Below, in pieces: positions 2,897 through 54,323 of a DNA stretch of 64,000 bases (position 1 is the first letter of the stretch; every line of letters begins with the position of its first letter). Both the position numbers and the translations under genes were made by a program. The notes beneath the pieces were generated by a model. That model was not told the DNA's origin, did not search any database, and was given only the letters and a program-made list of their open reading frames with translations. Source of the stretch: Gammaproteobacteria bacterium (lineage in GTDB: Bacteria > Pseudomonadota > Gammaproteobacteria > VBWC01); contig VBWC01000003.1 of the NCBI GenBank assembly GCA_006218035.1, forward strand, positions 243,251 to 307,250, read 5' to 3'.

Positions 2897-3343
2897 ATGA
2901 ATCGACTTAATGTGGAACTTGCCGTAGGGATTTTCATGATCGCCGGGTTCCTTTGCTTTGCGTATATTTCAATCAAGCTTGGCGACGTCAAGCTATTCGA
3001 GGAGGATACGTATACGTTGCAGGCTCGATTCGGTTCGATATCCGGACTGAAAAAGGGTGCGGATATCGAAATCGCCGGTGTCAAGGTCGGCAAGGTCACG
3101 GATATTGCCCTGGACGGGAGTCAATACGAAGCATTGGTGAAGTTGTCGCTCAGCAGCAGGTATAAATTACAGCAGGACAGCATTGCCTCCGTTCGTACCG
3201 CCGGCGTGATCGGCGACAAGTTTATCAGTATCGCGCCCGGTGGTTCCGAAGAATACCTCAGGGCAGGCGATTCCATACGCGATACAGAATCCTCTGTAAG
3301 TCTTGAGGAGCTGATCAGTAAATATATCTTTGAAAAGGAATAG
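2897..3343 (+). CDS. mlaD: MlaD, MCE-domain substrate-binding protein
   Basis: Periplasmic, inner-membrane-anchored ring protein of the Mla complex. The 148 residues comprise one N-terminal transmembrane helix (about residues 7-26) and a single MCE domain (about 38-115) with the signature GLKKGADIEIAGVKVGKV and the later TAGVIGDKFISIAPGG. It is shorter than the 183-residue E. coli protein, lacking part of the C-terminal helical extension. It lies 32 bases after mlaE and 7 bases before the probable mlaA start. Confidence 0.92.
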   Translation: MNRLNVELAVGIFMIAGFLCFAYISIKLGDVKLFEEDTYTLQARFGSISGLKKGADIEIAGVKVGKVTDIALDGSQYEALVKLSLSSRYKLQQDSIASVRTAGVIGDKFISIAPGGSEEYLRAGDSIRDTESSVSLEELISKYIFEKE

Positions 3344-3350
3344 GCGAGCG

Positions 3351-4157
3351 GTGCCAATTCCCGTGCGGCTTATGGCCAGACGTCTTCTGTTGCTCGCATG
3401 TCTTTCGGTATCGGGCGTATTGCCGGCCCATGCGGTGGACGAGGTGCCGCCGACGGGCATCAGCGGCGAACCGATGGATAGCGCTTTTTCGGACGATACT
3501 TCGCTTGGATCTGAAGACGACTTTCCTGCGGATGAGGATTTCTCTGTCGTATCCGATCCGCTGGAGAAGATTAACCGGGTGACGTTCTGGTTCAATGACA
3601 AGCTGTATTTCTATCTGCTAAAACCGGTTGCGCGCGCGTACCGTGTCGTACCCGAGTCGATTCGGGTATCGGTCGCCAACTTTTTCACGAATCTCGGTTC
3701 CCCGGTACGTGGGGTAAACGCAGTGTTTCAGATGAAATTTGCCGACGCCGGGAACGAAATGGGGCGCTTCATTATCAACTCCACGATGGGCATCGGCGGG
3801 TTATTCGATCCAGCGGAAAAATACGCCGGAATCCGGGAGACCGACGAAGATTTTGGGCAAACGCTGGGTGCCTATGGCGCTGGTCCGGGGTTCTATATCG
3901 TATTGCCGTTCCTGGGGCCATCCAGCCTGCGGGATGGTGTGGGTATGGTGGTCGACACCGGGATGTCTCCTCTCTACAACTATGCTGAACGCGAAGAGAA
4001 AGACAACCAGTATTTGGTTCTCAAAGCCGTGGAGGCGGTCAACACCGTTTCGCTGGACAAGGACACCTACGAAAGCATCAAAAGGGATGCGCTTGACCCT
4101 TACCAATTTGTCCGTGACGCGTATGTTCAAAATCGTCAAGGTAAAATCAGAAAGTAA
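3351..4157 (+). CDS. mlaA: MlaA/VacJ outer-membrane lipid-removal protein
   Basis: Outer-membrane component that strips misplaced phospholipid from the outer leaflet and passes it to MlaC. The family core starts at DPLEKINRVTFWFNDKLY and continues through NFFTNLGSPVRGVN, GRFIINSTMGIGGLFDPA and DFGQTLGAYGAGPGFYIVLP. I chose the GTG at 3351, preceded by a purine-rich AGGCGAG; an upstream TTG at 3330 lies inside mlaD, and an ATG at 3372 has no ribosome-binding site. The export signal is ambiguous: LLAC could be a lipobox with lipidation at that Cys, but cleavage at AHA is also possible. An acidic linker of about 40 residues precedes the domain. The order mlaE-mlaD-mlaA-mlaC resembles that of betaproteobacteria. 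Confidence 0.9.
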   Translation: MPIPVRLMARRLLLLACLSVSGVLPAHAVDEVPPTGISGEPMDSAFSDDTSLGSEDDFPADEDFSVVSDPLEKINRVTFWFNDKLYFYLLKPVARAYRVVPESIRVSVANFFTNLGSPVRGVNAVFQMKFADAGNEMGRFIINSTMGIGGLFDPAEKYAGIRETDEDFGQTLGAYGAGPGFYIVLPFLGPSSLRDGVGMVVDTGMSPLYNYAEREEKDNQYLVLKAVEAVNTVSLDKDTYESIKRDALDPYQFVRDAYVQNRQGKIRK

Positions 4158-46589: not shown

Positions 46590-47243
46590 ATGAGCGCGGC
46601 AACCCGAGGTCGGTTCATTACCCTGGAGGGTATCGAAGGGGTAGGCAAGAGCACGAATCTCGAATATGTTCGAGACTTCCTGGCCGCCGCCGGTAAGAAG
46701 ATTGTACAGACGCGTGAGCCGGGGGGGACGCCTGTCGGCGAGCAGGTGCGCGGGCTTCTGCTCAGTAACAGGAACCTTGGCATGGCCGACGATACCGAGC
46801 TACTGCTGATGTTCGCAGCAAGGGCCGAGCATGTTTCGAAGGTGATACGACCGGCGCTCGACAACGGACTATGGGTAGTAAGCGATCGGTTTACGGACGC
46901 CACCTACGCTTATCAGGGCGGTGGCCGCGGGATTCCGAATCACCACATTGCCGTGCTCGAAGAATGGGTTCTGGGAAGCTTACGGCCGGACATGACAATA
47001 TTACTTGATGCACCTGTGGAGACAGGCCTTGTGCGTGCCGGAAAACGTGGAACGCTTGATCGTTTCGAAAATGAGGCGCGTGGATTTTTTGAGCGTGTCC
47101 GCCAGGAATATCTCCAGCAGGCCACGCGGCATAGTGACCGTTTCAGAGTCATAGATGCGGCCCAGCCGTTGGCACGGGTACAACAGCACATCGCTGTGGT
47201 GCTGAACGACTTCTTGTTGGAAGCGGGTGGAGATCGGCATTGA
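46590..47243 (+). CDS. tmk: Thymidylate kinase
   Basis: Phosphorylates dTMP to dTDP. The 217 residues have the P-loop EGIEGVGKSTN, the DR(Y/W/F)-type motif TREPGGTPVGEQVR and SDRFTDATYAYQGGGRGI, and a LID-like segment near 145-160 (RAGKRGTLDRFE). It overlaps holB by 4 bases, the usual arrangement. Confidence 0.95.
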   Translation: MSAATRGRFITLEGIEGVGKSTNLEYVRDFLAAAGKKIVQTREPGGTPVGEQVRGLLLSNRNLGMADDTELLLMFAARAEHVSKVIRPALDNGLWVVSDRFTDATYAYQGGGRGIPNHHIAVLEEWVLGSLRPDMTILLDAPVETGLVRAGKRGTLDRFENEARGFFERVRQEYLQQATRHSDRFRVIDAAQPLARVQQHIAVVLNDFLLEAGGDRH

Positions 47244-48217
47244 GCGTATCGCTACCCTGGCATGAGGCGCAATCTCAAGTGCTGTTAACGCGGTTGCGGG
47301 AGAACAGATTTCCGCATGCGCTGCTGCTGACCGGTCGTCCAGGGCTCGGCAAGCACGTTTTCTCCGGAAAGCTCGCTGAGGTCCTGTTGTGCCTGGAACG
47401 ACACGCAGACGGATCCGCGTGCGGTAAGTGTCGCGGCTGCCAGCTATACCGCGCGCGCACGCACCCTGATTTGCACGAAGTTAACGTGCTGGAAGACAAA
47501 AAGTTTATCGGTGTAGACCAGATCCGCGCGATAAGTGATTACCTGTCACTGAAATCGCAGTTTGGCGGTTACAAGATCGTCATCATTTCGCCAGCGGACA
47601 AAATGAATATCAATGCCGCCAATAGCCTGCTGAAGACGCTGGAAGAGCCGCCGATGTGGTCGCTGTTGATACTGGTGACTGCGCATCCGGCGTCATTGCC
47701 ACCGACGATACGCAGCCGCTGCCAGCAGCTGTCCTTTGTCACCCCGCCGAAAGAGGTTGCCCGGGCGTGGCTCAAAGAGCAGGGGCGTAACGGGGATGAT
47801 CTGGATCTGGCACTTGGCCTCAGCGGTGGAGCCCCGCTGGCGGCACTTGCGGTTGCCACAGGTGACTGGCTGGAGCGTCGCCAGCAGATTTTCGAAGGAT
47901 TTGAAAAAGTCTTGTTAAACAAGGCCGACCCGATAACAACTGCGGCGGAATGGTTAAAGTTTGATGCCAGGGCCACGATATACTGGCTGTACAGTTGGAT
48001 AACGGACATGATCCGGTTAAGAACAGGGAATGATTCGGAACGTATTATTAACGGGGACATTGGCAGTCGGCTTCAGCAATTGTCGGGCGTCCTTACGCCG
48101 CAGTCCTGGTTCAAGTGCCTGGACGAGGCGAGCGATGCGTGGCGGTACGCGGAAAGTCAGGTCAATACCCCGTTACTGTTTGAAAATCTTTTGGTCGCCT
48201 GGGCCAATAGAAAATAG
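47240..48217 (+). CDS. holB: DNA polymerase III subunit delta'
   Basis: Clamp-loader subunit of the replicative polymerase. A TTG start within the tmk stop gives 325 residues. It shows the non-functional P-loop-like LTGRPGLGKHVFSGKLA, the zinc-binding cysteines (ACGKCRGC with an upstream Cys), the sensor-type VIISPADKMNINAANSLLKTLEEPP and TIRSRCQQLSF. The tail is the usual all-helical collar region. Confidence 0.94.
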   Translation: MSVSLPWHEAQSQVLLTRLRENRFPHALLLTGRPGLGKHVFSGKLAEVLLCLERHADGSACGKCRGCQLYRARTHPDLHEVNVLEDKKFIGVDQIRAISDYLSLKSQFGGYKIVIISPADKMNINAANSLLKTLEEPPMWSLLILVTAHPASLPPTIRSRCQQLSFVTPPKEVARAWLKEQGRNGDDLDLALGLSGGAPLAALAVATGDWLERRQQIFEGFEKVLLNKADPITTAAEWLKFDARATIYWLYSWITDMIRLRTGNDSERIINGDIGSRLQQLSGVLTPQSWFKCLDEASDAWRYAESQVNTPLLFENLLVAWANRK

Positions 48218-48248
48218 GATGTAATCAGGGAAGGTAGTCGACGGAATT

Positions 48249-48623
48249 ATGTCAGACCAGGAACAGAAACCCGCCGTGCCGGCGCCCCAGCGCCAACGCA
48301 TTCTATCGCTGACCATCAAGGACAAGAGCGCGCTGTATGCCGCCTACATGCCGTTTCTTGATGGTGGTGGACTGTTTATTCCGACCACCGATAAATACAA
48401 GATAGGTGACGAAGTATTCCTGCTGCTGTCCCTGATTGATGAGCCGGAGAAACTCCCGGTAATTGGTCACGTGATCTGGATTACGCCGAAAGGCGCGCAG
48501 GGCAATCGCGCCGCCGGGATCGGTATTCAGTTCAGCAAGCATGAGGACTCGCAGGTAGTCAAGCTGCTTGAAACCCACCTCGCCGGTGCATTGCAGTCGG
48601 ATCGCGCTACTCATACGATGTAG
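48249..48623 (+). CDS. PilZ-domain protein
   Basis: Small cytoplasmic protein of the PilZ family found next to holB; the Pseudomonas homologue PilZ is needed for type IV pilus assembly. The 124 residues include LYAAYMPFLDGGGLFIPTTDKYKIGD and PVIGHVIWITPKGAQGNRAAGIGIQF. The RxxxR motif needed for cyclic-di-GMP binding is not seen, as in the pilus-type PilZ, so it is unlikely to bind the nucleotide. Lies 31 bases after holB. Confidence 0.92.
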   Translation: MSDQEQKPAVPAPQRQRILSLTIKDKSALYAAYMPFLDGGGLFIPTTDKYKIGDEVFLLLSLIDEPEKLPVIGHVIWITPKGAQGNRAAGIGIQFSKHEDSQVVKLLETHLAGALQSDRATHTM

Positions 48624-48696
48624 CATCGGGGTTGCGCGCGTGTGTGCGATTGCCTAATATTCACGCCTGCCTCAAGAAAGCCGCATTTGGACTATT

Positions 48697-49482
48697 ATGT
48701 CGTTCGCGCTGGTCGATACTCACTGCCACCTCGATATGCTCGATCTAGACGCCATTGGAGGCGATCTCGATAGCGTCATCCGGAACGCGAAGGAAAACGG
48801 CGTAACCCGTTTCCTGACGGTCTCCATAAGCCTCGAAAATATCCCGGCGGTTATTGCGATAGCCCGTCGCTATGAGACCGTTTACGCGTCTGCAGGCGTT
48901 CACCCGAACGAGCGCAATGGCCGCGAACCAGACGTGGATGATTTAATTAAATTCGGAGATGACAGTAACGTCATCGCAATCGGCGAAACCGGGCTGGATT
49001 ATTATCGCAGTACCGGTGACCTGGAATGGCAACGTGAGCGCTTTCGACGCCATATTTTCGCGGCGAAATATTTATCCAAACCGTTGATCGTCCACAGTCG
49101 GGATGCGCGCGAGGATACCCTGCGAATCCTGGCCGAGGAAAACGCAGCGCAGGCTGGTGGCGTCATGCATTGCTATGTCGAGGATCTGGCGACTGCACAG
49201 CGATGCATCGAAATGAATTTCTATATTTCGTTCTCGGGGATTGTGACGTTCAAGAATACGATACAGTTACAACAGGTGGCACGGGAGATTCCGCTGGGCC
49301 GCATGTTGCTGGAAACTGACTCGCCGTATCTCGCGCCGGTACCGTTTCGGGGTAAGACAAATCAGCCAGCGTACATACGCCATGTGGCGGCGCGAATCGC
49401 GGAACTGCGAGGCATCAGCGTCGAAGAAGTTGCAGAAGTTACCACACAGAATTTCGTTGATGCCTTTGGAGTTGCAGCCTAG
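48697..49482 (+). CDS. tatD: TatD-family metal-dependent deoxyribonuclease
   Basis: Metal-dependent hydrolase of the TatD family (3'-5' exonuclease activity is known for relatives). The 261 residues start with DTHCHLDMLDLDAIGG (metal-binding His-x-His), followed by GVHPNE, IGETGLDYY, LIVHSRDAREDTLRIL, HCYVEDLATA and LLETDSPYLAP. It is the last gene of the fab-holB run and shares the CTAG at its stop with the convergent gene. Confidence 0.92.
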   Translation: MSFALVDTHCHLDMLDLDAIGGDLDSVIRNAKENGVTRFLTVSISLENIPAVIAIARRYETVYASAGVHPNERNGREPDVDDLIKFGDDSNVIAIGETGLDYYRSTGDLEWQRERFRRHIFAAKYLSKPLIVHSRDAREDTLRILAEENAAQAGGVMHCYVEDLATAQRCIEMNFYISFSGIVTFKNTIQLQQVAREIPLGRMLLETDSPYLAPVPFRGKTNQPAYIRHVAARIAELRGISVEEVAEVTTQNFVDAFGVAA

Positions 49483-50708: not shown

Positions 50709-51076
50709 ATCGTGGCGTGGCACGGTTTGACAACATCCCAATGCGTTACAGCCCCGAATATTAAGATGTACATTCGGGTTACGCGCAGCCTGTTTTAGCC
50801 AGTATTGCTGAAATAGCTGGAATCGGTGCGATACGTGCGTCAGCTGGATCGGAGTGTGTGGCGTGCGGGTTAGTTGTAGCGCGCATCGACCTCACTGAGT
50901 GTGATTTCCTGGTGCCCGTGTCGCGAGCGACCGTAAGCCGCTTGTGGGTCCGAGGCAGTACGTCATTGTGGTGGATGGGGTAGCGTTAGGATTTTTCCAG
51001 AATTGGCGAATACGCCCGTGACGCGTCGAACAGGATAGGTCACACCGGAAGTAAATGTTATAAATAGGTTTTCTCT

Positions 51077-51095
51077 ACGATGGGCGCTCCATCGT
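51077..51095. repeat. Inverted repeat ACGATGG-N5-CCATCGT
   Basis: A perfect 7-bp inverted repeat with a 5-base centre in the gene-poor region, followed by a G-run and no T-run. It might be an operator or a leader hairpin for the downstream coiled-coil gene; nothing in the sequence decides. Confidence 0.4.
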
Positions 51096-51332
51096 GGGGG
51101 CGATTTTCTCGTAAGGATTCGCAAAAAAAAGGCCGTGTTAATAGGTATTTATGTCTCGACTTTCAGGTTTTTTGGTCGATATTCGTTAGGTTAGCCTGGG
51201 TAATGCGGGCGTCGTGGCGGCTAGCCATATTAATAATTTTAGTAAATATTCATCTGGATGTTTCTAATAATACGTAATTAATTGTGACAATCCGTGCTAG
51301 TAAAGCGGCGCAGGAACTCGTTTTACAGCGAC

Positions 51333-51339
51333 AGGGGAG
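51333..51339 (+). promoter_or_regulatory. Ribosome-binding site deciding the coiled-coil gene start
   Basis: AGGGGAG lies 8 bases before TTG 51348, while the longer frame's GTG at 51294 has no such site. This supports the internal TTG as the start. Confidence 0.5.
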
Positions 51340-51347
51340 CGATCGAG

Positions 51348-54323
51348 TTGGGCGGGCGAGACACTGACACCGTTATCAAAGGCCTTGAGGGCGAGATAGA
51401 GCGCCTCAGTGCCAAATTGCGTAAGTCATACGACACCCACGCGGAGACGGTTACAAAGTTCGAACACGATATCGAACTTTTCAAGCGCGAACTGAATTCC
51501 GCCTACCAACTTAGCGCGCACCTGACCGGTGAGAAGGCCCAGCTCGCGAGTGCCGCCAACGATACCCCGGACTACGCGAGGCAGGTTGAGGAACAGCTGC
51601 GGGTGCTAACCACGGAGCTGAAGAAGGCGAATGAGGAACGGCGTAATGCGGGAGAAAGAATCGCCGAACTTCAGGCGAGCCTTGAAGCCGCCGAGAGCGT
51701 CGCTACCAATTACTTCTCGTCGTTGAATCAGGTTGAAAGGGAGTATACGAGCGCCAAAGAAGATATCCTGCGTTTGAGTATCCAATTAGACGGGGTAAGT
51801 ACGACGCAGAACGGAACCGTTGCTTCAGCATCGCGTAACAAGGTTGCTGGCGATCATTTGAGTGTAATAGTTGATCGTGGTGTTGATGAGGGAGATCTTC
51901 AAAAACGTGTTATTGACGCCGAACAGCTTGCGAAGGAATATGAATCCCGTATAAGAAGGCGTGACGAGCAGTATGCCGCTTCGGAGACGCAGGTTGCCTG
52001 CCTGACAAAAGAGTTGGCAAACGTCAAGAAAAATATCAATCAAAGCATTTCTATCCAGAAAAATACGGCAAGAGAAAACTCTCCGCAAACCTCCCATACG
52101 GAAGAGCTGAGCGAGCTGCGTTCACGTATCGAAGCGGCGGAATACATTCTGGCTGATTATCAAGCAAAGCTTAAGCAAGCGGAGATTGACCGGGACGAGG
52201 CGCTGCGTGATCTAAAGCGAGTGACGGCAGAACTGGATGGACGAAGGTACAGTGGAGACGCCGGTATTGGCAGGCCGGAGCGTGACGCGAGTGAATCAAA
52301 AGTTAGCGTTCTGGAGCAGAAACTTGCGCAGGCGACGCGGCAACAAACGGATCAACAAAGTGAAGAAAAGCGTATCCGGTCCAGATTAAAGTCGGCAGAA
52401 ACGCTGGCGTCCAACTATATGTTGCAGGCGAAAAACGCTGGGGCTGAACAGGCGAATTTGCTTAGGGAAATTGAGCGCTTGAAAGGCCTGTTACTAGCAT
52501 CGAATGCAGTGCAAAGCAGTCTTGAGACGATTACCGACGAGGAGTATGAGACCAGGTTGAATGACCTCGAGGCGGCAAGGGTGCGTGCTGAGCAGGAAAC
52601 CCGCAAAGTCCAGCAACAGTTGGCTATTGCCAATGACCTGTATGAAACCCTGAAGAAGGACAGCGAAGCGCTTGAGACGACTCGCGCTGCGAACATGTCC
52701 GAGCACGAGCTCGACTCGGAGCGATTGGCCGCACTGGAAAATCGGGTGTCCGCGCTGCAACTGGAGCGTGAAGAGTACGAACGACAGTTAACGTCGGACA
52801 GGACGGCGCTGGATCACGCTAAAAAAGCGCGCGATACCGCCGAAGCGCGCGCGGAGGACAGCTCGACCAAGAGTGCCGTCCTTGAGCAAGATTACCAGTC
52901 CGCACGAGGTCAGATACTGAAACTGTCCGGCGAGCTGGAAGCTGAGCAGGCGCGGCTGCACGATATTACCAAGGACTGTGAGATATACGCCATTCGGCAC
53001 AAGGAATTGTCGGATTTGCTACGCGAGCATGAGCAGCGGCTGGCGGAAGCAACTGAAAAGACGAGTGCGGCCGAGCTTAGCGCACGGCAAGCCGATGCAG
53101 AACGGCAGACGGCAGAGAAAGAGATTGAAGTACTACAAATCAGAATCGCCGAACTCGAGCACTACGCCTCGTCGGCTGAAAACAACTCAACCCTGGTTGC
53201 GGAGCTCGATCTGGCAAAGCAAAATCTCGACGCACAAAGAAAGGTCGCGCGAGATGCGGAGACTCGAATAGCAGCGTTAGCCGAGGCTGCGAAGATTGCC
53301 GAGAATAAAATCGAGGAATATCGTGTTCAAAGGGATAGCGCGCGTGGAACATCTGAGATGCTCTCGGCCAAGGTGGTCGAAGCGGAAGAGAGAAATCGGA
53401 TAGCGATGGCTGATTCCGGTGTCATGAAAGACCAATGGAGTCAGCTCGACAAGAGTCAGCGCGGCACACAGGAAAAGTTGGGCGACCTGGTCCAGCAGCT
53501 TGCTGAAAAAGATAAGCAGGTAGAAAAGACCATTCGCGACCAGGCCACCCTGGAAAAGGAACGCGGTCGATTGGCGAAGAAATTAAAGCAGTATGAGGAG
53601 CAACTGACCAGCGGGAAGCATGATGCCGCTGAAAAAATGAAAATGATCGAGGCATCCCGTCGGGATCAGCAGGAGACACGGGAACGGGCGACGCGTCTGG
53701 AAATGGAAATCGTTACCCTAAAACAGGACTCGACCAGGGTGCATGGCAATGTGGCAGTATCGGAACAACGGAGCGTGCTTCTCGAACAAGCCAACGAGAA
53801 ACTGGCCGGCGAGCTGAAAACGTTCCGGGATGAACGCGACAAGCTGCTGGCGAATATTTCGATAGAACGCGAAAAAGTGCGACAACAGTTGTCTTTGGAG
53901 CAGAACCTTAACAACCAATTGAAGATGGATAATCAACTTCTCGGCGGAAAAATTAGTAGCCTGATGGAACAAGTGGCACGAGGCAGGGCTCAACGAGATG
54001 TTGGCGGTGAGTCATCGCGTCCCCGCCATTTCAGGTTACGGCTGGTCGAGCGGCCAATGGCACCGGGAACCAGTTCAGTTACGAAGGGCTGGCGCAGGGT
54101 ATCAGGAAGTGATTGGGGTGGAATTGATGTGACTGGAGCTCCGGCGGACAAGGAAGAACCGGCGATATCCACCGGTGTTCGCCAGGAAATGGTGAAAACG
54201 ATACCGGTGCAGGGAATTGACGATCTGATTATGGCCCTTACCTCGATCGTAGCCAAGACGACGTCGAGCGTTAGGCGGGATCTGCGTATGGTTAGCCGGT
54301 TTATACTACAAGTCTTTCGTTAG
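51348..54323 (+). CDS. Large coiled-coil protein of unknown function
   Basis: A 991-residue protein that I cannot assign to a named family. I use TTG 51348 because of its ribosome-binding site; a GTG at 51294 would add 18 basic residues. No signal peptide or transmembrane segment is visible, so it is probably cytoplasmic. Residues 10-880 are nearly all charged heptad-type helix (ERLSAKLRKSY, KREIL-type patterns), broken by short linkers near 155-175 and 300-325. A quasi-repeat with AExLAxxY recurs four times in the first 360 residues. From about 885 a Gly/Pro/Arg-rich stretch (RPRHFRLRLVERP) and a final helix (DDLIMALTSIVAKTT, then SRFILQVFR) form a separate tail. It could be a filament or scaffold protein. 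It converges on tamB but shares no operon with it. Confidence 0.7.
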   Translation: MGGRDTDTVIKGLEGEIERLSAKLRKSYDTHAETVTKFEHDIELFKRELNSAYQLSAHLTGEKAQLASAANDTPDYARQVEEQLRVLTTELKKANEERRNAGERIAELQASLEAAESVATNYFSSLNQVEREYTSAKEDILRLSIQLDGVSTTQNGTVASASRNKVAGDHLSVIVDRGVDEGDLQKRVIDAEQLAKEYESRIRRRDEQYAASETQVACLTKELANVKKNINQSISIQKNTARENSPQTSHTEELSELRSRIEAAEYILADYQAKLKQAEIDRDEALRDLKRVTAELDGRRYSGDAGIGRPERDASESKVSVLEQKLAQATRQQTDQQSEEKRIRSRLKSAETLASNYMLQAKNAGAEQANLLREIERLKGLLLASNAVQSSLETITDEEYETRLNDLEAARVRAEQETRKVQQQLAIANDLYETLKKDSEALETTRAANMSEHELDSERLAALENRVSALQLEREEYERQLTSDRTALDHAKKARDTAEARAEDSSTKSAVLEQDYQSARGQILKLSGELEAEQARLHDITKDCEIYAIRHKELSDLLREHEQRLAEATEKTSAAELSARQADAERQTAEKEIEVLQIRIAELEHYASSAENNSTLVAELDLAKQNLDAQRKVARDAETRIAALAEAAKIAENKIEEYRVQRDSARGTSEMLSAKVVEAEERNRIAMADSGVMKDQWSQLDKSQRGTQEKLGDLVQQLAEKDKQVEKTIRDQATLEKERGRLAKKLKQYEEQLTSGKHDAAEKMKMIEASRRDQQETRERATRLEMEIVTLKQDSTRVHGNVAVSEQRSVLLEQANEKLAGELKTFRDERDKLLANISIEREKVRQQLSLEQNLNNQLKMDNQLLGGKISSLMEQVARGRAQRDVGGESSRPRHFRLRLVERPMAPGTSSVTKGWRRVSGSDWGGIDVTGAPADKEEPAISTGVRQEMVKTIPVQGIDDLIMALTSIVAKTTSSVRRDLRMVSRFILQVFR

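Follow-up and report, generated by a model that had tools for sequence, protein, structure and literature searches.

The window, a stretch of 64,000 nucleotides from a gammaproteobacterial genome (G000), contains a gene for a coiled-coil protein of 991 amino acids, which we will call the rod protein. On one side of the rod gene is a divergent gene for a class V aminotransferase, and on the other side are the convergent genes tamB and tamA. The first-pass annotation had suggested a survey beside tamAB in related genomes, and the survey did recover the gene: in G001, the only other genome of the order that was examined, an ortholog (86% identical) lies at the same place beside tamB, and the flanks on both sides are alike. 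That annotation also placed the gene between a gene-poor region and convergent tamB. It was right about tamB, but the other side is an intergenic gap of about 600 bp with a conserved leader, rather than a gene-poor region. The neighboring genes point to no function. (A run of four genes on the + strand at 46590–49482 of the window comes just before the flanking aminotransferase gene: tmk, holB, and genes for a PilZ-domain and a TatD-family protein.) The features of the locus are:

51060..51347, + strand: conserved leader, probably a 5' UTR, with a hairpin and T-run at 51072–51100 (DNA alignment with G001; scan for terminator-like sequences)
51333..51339, + strand: Shine-Dalgarno sequence AGGGGAG, 8 nt 5' of the TTG, kept in the G001 ortholog
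51348..54323, + strand: coiled-coil rod gene, 991 aa, likely TTG start (open reading frame, Shine-Dalgarno sequence, starts of the ortholog and paralogs, dN/dS)
51348..51803, + strand: N-terminal head, residues 1–152, two long predicted helices around an invariant AAND-x-PDYA break (AlphaFold2, identities, dN/dS)
51624..51794, + strand: repeat copy 1, residues 93–149 (self-comparison, repeat profile)
52071..52241, + strand: repeat copy 2, residues 242–298 (self-comparison, repeat profile, identity to the paralog)
52329..52499, + strand: repeat copy 3, residues 328–384 (self-comparison, repeat profile)
52530..53999, + strand: long rod of variable length, residues ~395–884 (AlphaFold2 helices to 884; family alignment)
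54000..54215, + strand: disordered Arg-rich linker, residues 885–956 (pLDDT about 27–35; net charge of +8 over residues 841–924)
54216..54320, + strand: amphipathic basic C-terminal helices, residues 957–991, a possible peripheral membrane tether (AlphaFold2 helices; hydrophobic moment)

The open frame at 51294–54323 (+ strand) is longer than the 991-residue reading. The first-pass annotation gave this frame together with a length of 991 residues; the frame is real, and the 991 residues run from TTG 51348 to the stop codon at 54321–54323. We considered GTG 51294 as the start (1,009 amino acids) and rejected it, as the TTG has a good Shine-Dalgarno sequence and the G001 ortholog has in-frame stops upstream of the equivalent position. 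The paralogs (described below) begin at a GTG equivalent to TTG 51348, with their own AGGGAGGG upstream. Together, the stops in the ortholog and the starts of the paralogs make TTG 51348 the likely start.

The ~290 bp 5' of the rod gene are conserved better than the DNA further upstream (alignment with G001). The G001 ortholog's leader has a similar hairpin to that at 51072–51100 (+ strand), which could be the terminator of an upstream transcript or an attenuator. We rejected a structured RNA in the leader, which has no match in Rfam and a fold z-score of −0.95.

The rod protein is acidic (pI 5.5, 112 kDa) and has a high content of E, A, L, and R but just nine prolines. The codon adaptation of its gene is 0.62, as compared to 0.60–0.69 for its neighbors and 0.65–0.78 for ribosomal proteins, so codon usage lends no support to a high abundance. 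GC3 (0.58) and codon usage match those of the neighbors. Given this native composition, and with no convincing relative among viral contigs, plasmids, or phages, we rejected horizontal transfer.

In a simple home-made test of heptads (not COILS), 77% of the 991 residues lie within 28-residue windows with a strong hydrophobic bias at the a and d positions. Shuffled sequences gave a mean of 27% and a maximum of 41%, and TamB, the class V aminotransferase, and a chorismate-binding enzyme of the window gave 8–12%. The hydrophobic period of the whole protein is 3.49. From an alignment of four sequences, AlphaFold2 predicted almost exclusively long helices (residues 6–72, 74–153, 181–240, 248–299, 315–394, 397–501, 509–607, 614–717, 725–797, and 802–884), followed by disorder at 885–956 and short helices at 957–970 and 973–990. 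The full-length model from these four sequences is poor overall (pTM of 0.24), so we used the helix assignments and set aside the arrangement of the helices. The N-terminal 153 residues modeled alone reached a pLDDT of 81.5 and a pTM of 0.54. From these results, the earlier description of the protein as almost entirely coiled coil holds up to residue 884 and fails for the last ~107 residues (~885–991). The absence of a membrane helix was borne out: the highest hydropathy over 19 residues is 1.3, near the C terminus, which is below the usual range for transmembrane segments. No signal peptide was seen either, as judged from Pfam and NCBIfam cut-offs and hydropathy.

No Pfam family scored above its cut-off (there were generic sub-threshold matches only), no PDB sequence matched at E ≤ 0.001, and PHROGs and PADLOC gave nothing meaningful. 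Across these searches and NCBIfam, we found no enzymatic, DNA-binding, or export domain. Foldseek against PDB gave no match at E ≤ 0.001 with either the full model or the head, and its highest-ranked entries are a mix of coiled coils and helical hairpins. We set aside matches to Nucleoprot-TPR, liprin, tropomyosin, SH3BP5, and EmrA, which are all weak and are generic coiled coil or helical hairpin. We also considered that the rod protein might be an SMC protein. NCBIfam's SMC models match it at 53.9 bits, which is about a tenth of the cut-off of 567 bits, and only in the coiled-coil arms (the best stretch is arm positions 676–944 of 1,181). The Foldseek similarity to SMC, RecN, and MukB is weak as well and is also confined to the arms. 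Unlike those proteins, the rod protein has no hinge and no ABC ATPase head, with its Walker A and signature motifs, and it matches no ATPase family in Pfam. These results agree with the first-pass annotation, which had kept the protein apart from SMC, RecN, and MukB and had found it close to no named family; the structure search that it recommended gave no confident match to a named family either.

Both G000 and G001 carry a paralog of the rod protein, which is 43–44% identical overall and 55–56% identical over the N-terminal 390 residues. In both genomes, the paralog adjoins a gene for a DUF4136 protein. We describe it as an older paralog. We found no convincing relatives in samples of the class (274 genomes with a protein query and 369 with a profile) or of the phylum (200 genomes); these samples overlap, and they are samples rather than whole groups. 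A search for two peptide patterns found no relative in GTDB-220 contigs outside G001. One match in the class, to a ~234-residue protein of G055, spans about 100 profile positions with 24 bits and E = 4.6e-5; as this protein is unlike the family, we take the match to be a chance one between coiled coils. Matches of the C-terminal tail in other genomes (E of 0.004–0.1) are noise.

A segment of ~57 residues is found three times in the N-terminal half of the rod protein (self-comparison). The ungapped scores are 89 for copies 1 and 2, 79 for copies 2 and 3, and 63 for copies 1 and 3, while none of 20 shuffles scored above their maximum of 56. The first two scores stand out, but the score of 63 is no better than other generic coil-on-coil matches within the protein. 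(The repeat profile derives from these three copies, which makes the scores that it gives them circular.) There may be a degenerate fourth copy near residues 183–223. The core common to the copies is roughly [LI]-x-[AS]-A-E-x-[VIL]-x-[AS]-x-Y.

Residues that are invariant between the rod protein and the paralogs are concentrated in 1–150 and 252–292. The head is 69% identical to the paralogs (and 95% identical to the ortholog), and at residues 252–292, 38 of 41 are identical to the G000 paralog. Recent gene conversion might have produced this near-invariant segment, but 14 of the 38 identical residues use different codons, and we rejected it. Because the codons there differ by many synonymous changes, the conservation of 1–150 and 252–292 would reflect selection instead. 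For 252–292, this argues for constraint as the explanation, with an old conversion event less probable.

Between G000 and G001, the rod gene has dN of 0.071 and dS of 0.193, for a ratio of 0.37. This ratio falls to 0.07 over codons 1–100 and to 0.17 over codons 201–300. For comparison, dN/dS is 0.36 for the paralog, 0.27 for TamB, 0.17 for TamA, and 0.03 for RimK. In this pair of genomes, the rod gene is under purifying selection. We also asked if it could be an orphan gene of low constraint and little function, which is drifting as a generic coiled coil. The family is known from two genomes of one genus only, and the overall ratio for the rod gene is above those for TamB, TamA, and RimK. However, both paralogs are kept in both genomes, and none of the four copies has an internal stop (the C-terminal end of the G001 paralog is at a contig end). 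Furthermore, the N terminus is under very strong constraint, and the start codon, the Shine-Dalgarno sequence, and the leader are conserved. We therefore consider a drifting orphan to be improbable. The first-pass annotation had named decay or absence in close relatives as grounds against its reading; instead, the one close relative has an intact gene under selection.

A strongly constrained head and repeat 2 region, joined to a rod that varies freely, could also be the mark of a long tether or adaptor that does not polymerize and that serves a partner complex, such as the division, polarity, chromosome, or pilus machinery. But no partner gene is linked to the rod gene, whose neighbors are the class V aminotransferase and tamB, and the protein lacks an ATPase head or any other recognizable domain. 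This role seems unlikely.

The C-terminal tail is a candidate for attachment to the membrane. Taken as a helix, the final 18 residues (SVRRDLRMVSRFILQVFR) give a hydrophobic moment of 0.84 and a charge of +4; in the G001 ortholog, these values are 0.93 and +5. The C-terminal helix may be a membrane tether, and since no 19-residue stretch is in the transmembrane range, such a tether would be peripheral. The G000 paralog ends before this tail and does not have the helix, so the tether would not be family-wide.

Bacterial rod-domain proteins have been defined as having more than 80 residues of coiled coil, whether in one run or in segments, with no signal, transmembrane, or enzymatic domain, and as forming filaments spontaneously in vitro (PMC2680258). 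At the level of sequence, the rod protein fits this description: coiled coil covers about 77% of its 991 residues, in agreement with the AlphaFold2 helices, and by Pfam, NCBIfam, and hydropathy it has no signal, transmembrane segment, or enzymatic domain. The FilP family of actinobacteria has conserved N-terminal motifs but coils of differing length (PMC2680258), and FilP motifs at the borders of its first two coils are characteristic of it. Similarly, the rod protein is a segmented coiled-coil rod without other domains, with conserved N-terminal motifs and a variable rod length. Unlike FilP, which we compared by its description, it contains internal repeats and ends in an amphipathic helix, and no sequence relation was detected. 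Crescentin of Caulobacter is another all-helical rod, and its first 27 residues, a short and positively charged segment, place it at the membrane (PMC10873595). The rod protein also has a short basic terminal segment that is a candidate for placing it at the inner membrane, but at the C terminus instead of the N terminus.

These likenesses raise the idea that the rod protein is a true intermediate filament-like cytoskeletal element of the crescentin or FilP type, which would assemble into filaments on its own and shape the cell. At the level of sequence, its segmented coil does satisfy the rod-domain definition (PMC2680258). However, the rods of intermediate filament proteins are about 308–350 residues long (PMC10873595), and this conserved length is not seen here: the helices extend to residue 884, which makes a rod of nearly 900 residues versus about 310–350 (PMC10873595), and ~120 rod residues (roughly 465–585 in the alignment) are missing from the paralogs, so the paralogs differ in rod length. 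Codon bias is ordinary. Crescentin structures are in PDB (PMC10873595), and the PDB sequence search found no relation to crescentin at E ≤ 0.001, although remote coiled-coil homology is beyond this search. Also, each genome has one bactofilin gene (L033 at C2:44777–45067 in G000 and L034 at C17:44087–44377 in G001), so the rod protein would not have to be the sole cytoskeletal component. We view an element of this type as unlikely, though slightly less so than a tether or adaptor that does not polymerize.

The rod protein also resembles the coiled-coil-rich proteins (CCRPs) of cyanobacteria and Helicobacter (PMC7002697 and references in it), which are lineage-specific long coiled-coil proteins and typically match SMC models weakly. 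CCRPs are from other lineages, and their assembly has been tested.

The first-pass annotation proposed a possible filament or scaffold. This is still the best reading, because an all-helical segmented rod without an enzyme domain or membrane helix fits the rod-domain definition (PMC2680258). But a crescentin-type filament is no better favored than a membrane-tethered scaffold, because the fixed head and repeats, the varying rod, and the amphipathic C-terminal helix favor the scaffold at least as much. We propose, with not quite even confidence, that the rod protein is a cytoplasmic segmented coiled-coil rod, most likely acting as a structural scaffold near the inner membrane. The rods would dimerize and perhaps bundle into higher-order assemblies, and they might self-assemble into filaments. 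A partner would dock on the N-terminal head and repeats, the rod would be a spacer, and the C-terminal helix would keep the rod at the membrane's inner face. The paralog, whose G000 copy lacks the tail, might be a partner that co-assembles or is placed differently. As far as the searches went, the family is new and restricted to its lineage, and its kind, the rod-domain protein, is already known.

More speculatively, and with much less confidence than we have in the scaffold itself, this could be an order-specific cytoskeletal or scaffold system of an uncultured gammaproteobacterial lineage, presumably from groundwater (we take this from the name of the G001 isolate). It would have two paralogous giant rods, one of them tethered to the membrane by its amphipathic C-terminal helix and the other untethered, that share N-terminal segments for docking a partner and organize the envelope or the poles. 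Coiled-coil scaffolds and filaments in bacteria evolve quickly and often escape homology searches. The present family offers a small and clean case, with two paralogs in each of two species, a head and repeats that are recognizably conserved, and a candidate membrane tether, so that precise deletion and localization tests can be designed. Its importance rests wholly on assembly or localization being shown.

We also noticed signs of mobile elements near the paralogs. In G000, an IS3-type integrase gene (L009:85-948) lies about 1.5 kb upstream of the paralog. In G001, an insertion upstream of the paralog (L010, about 2950–3630) has transposase-like fragments and is not present in G000. Where the G001 paralog meets the contig end (L010:1-104, on C2), the last bases of the contig recur at L031:1501-1617 (the end of contig C17), which suggests that the C-terminal end of this paralog borders a repeat or an IS.
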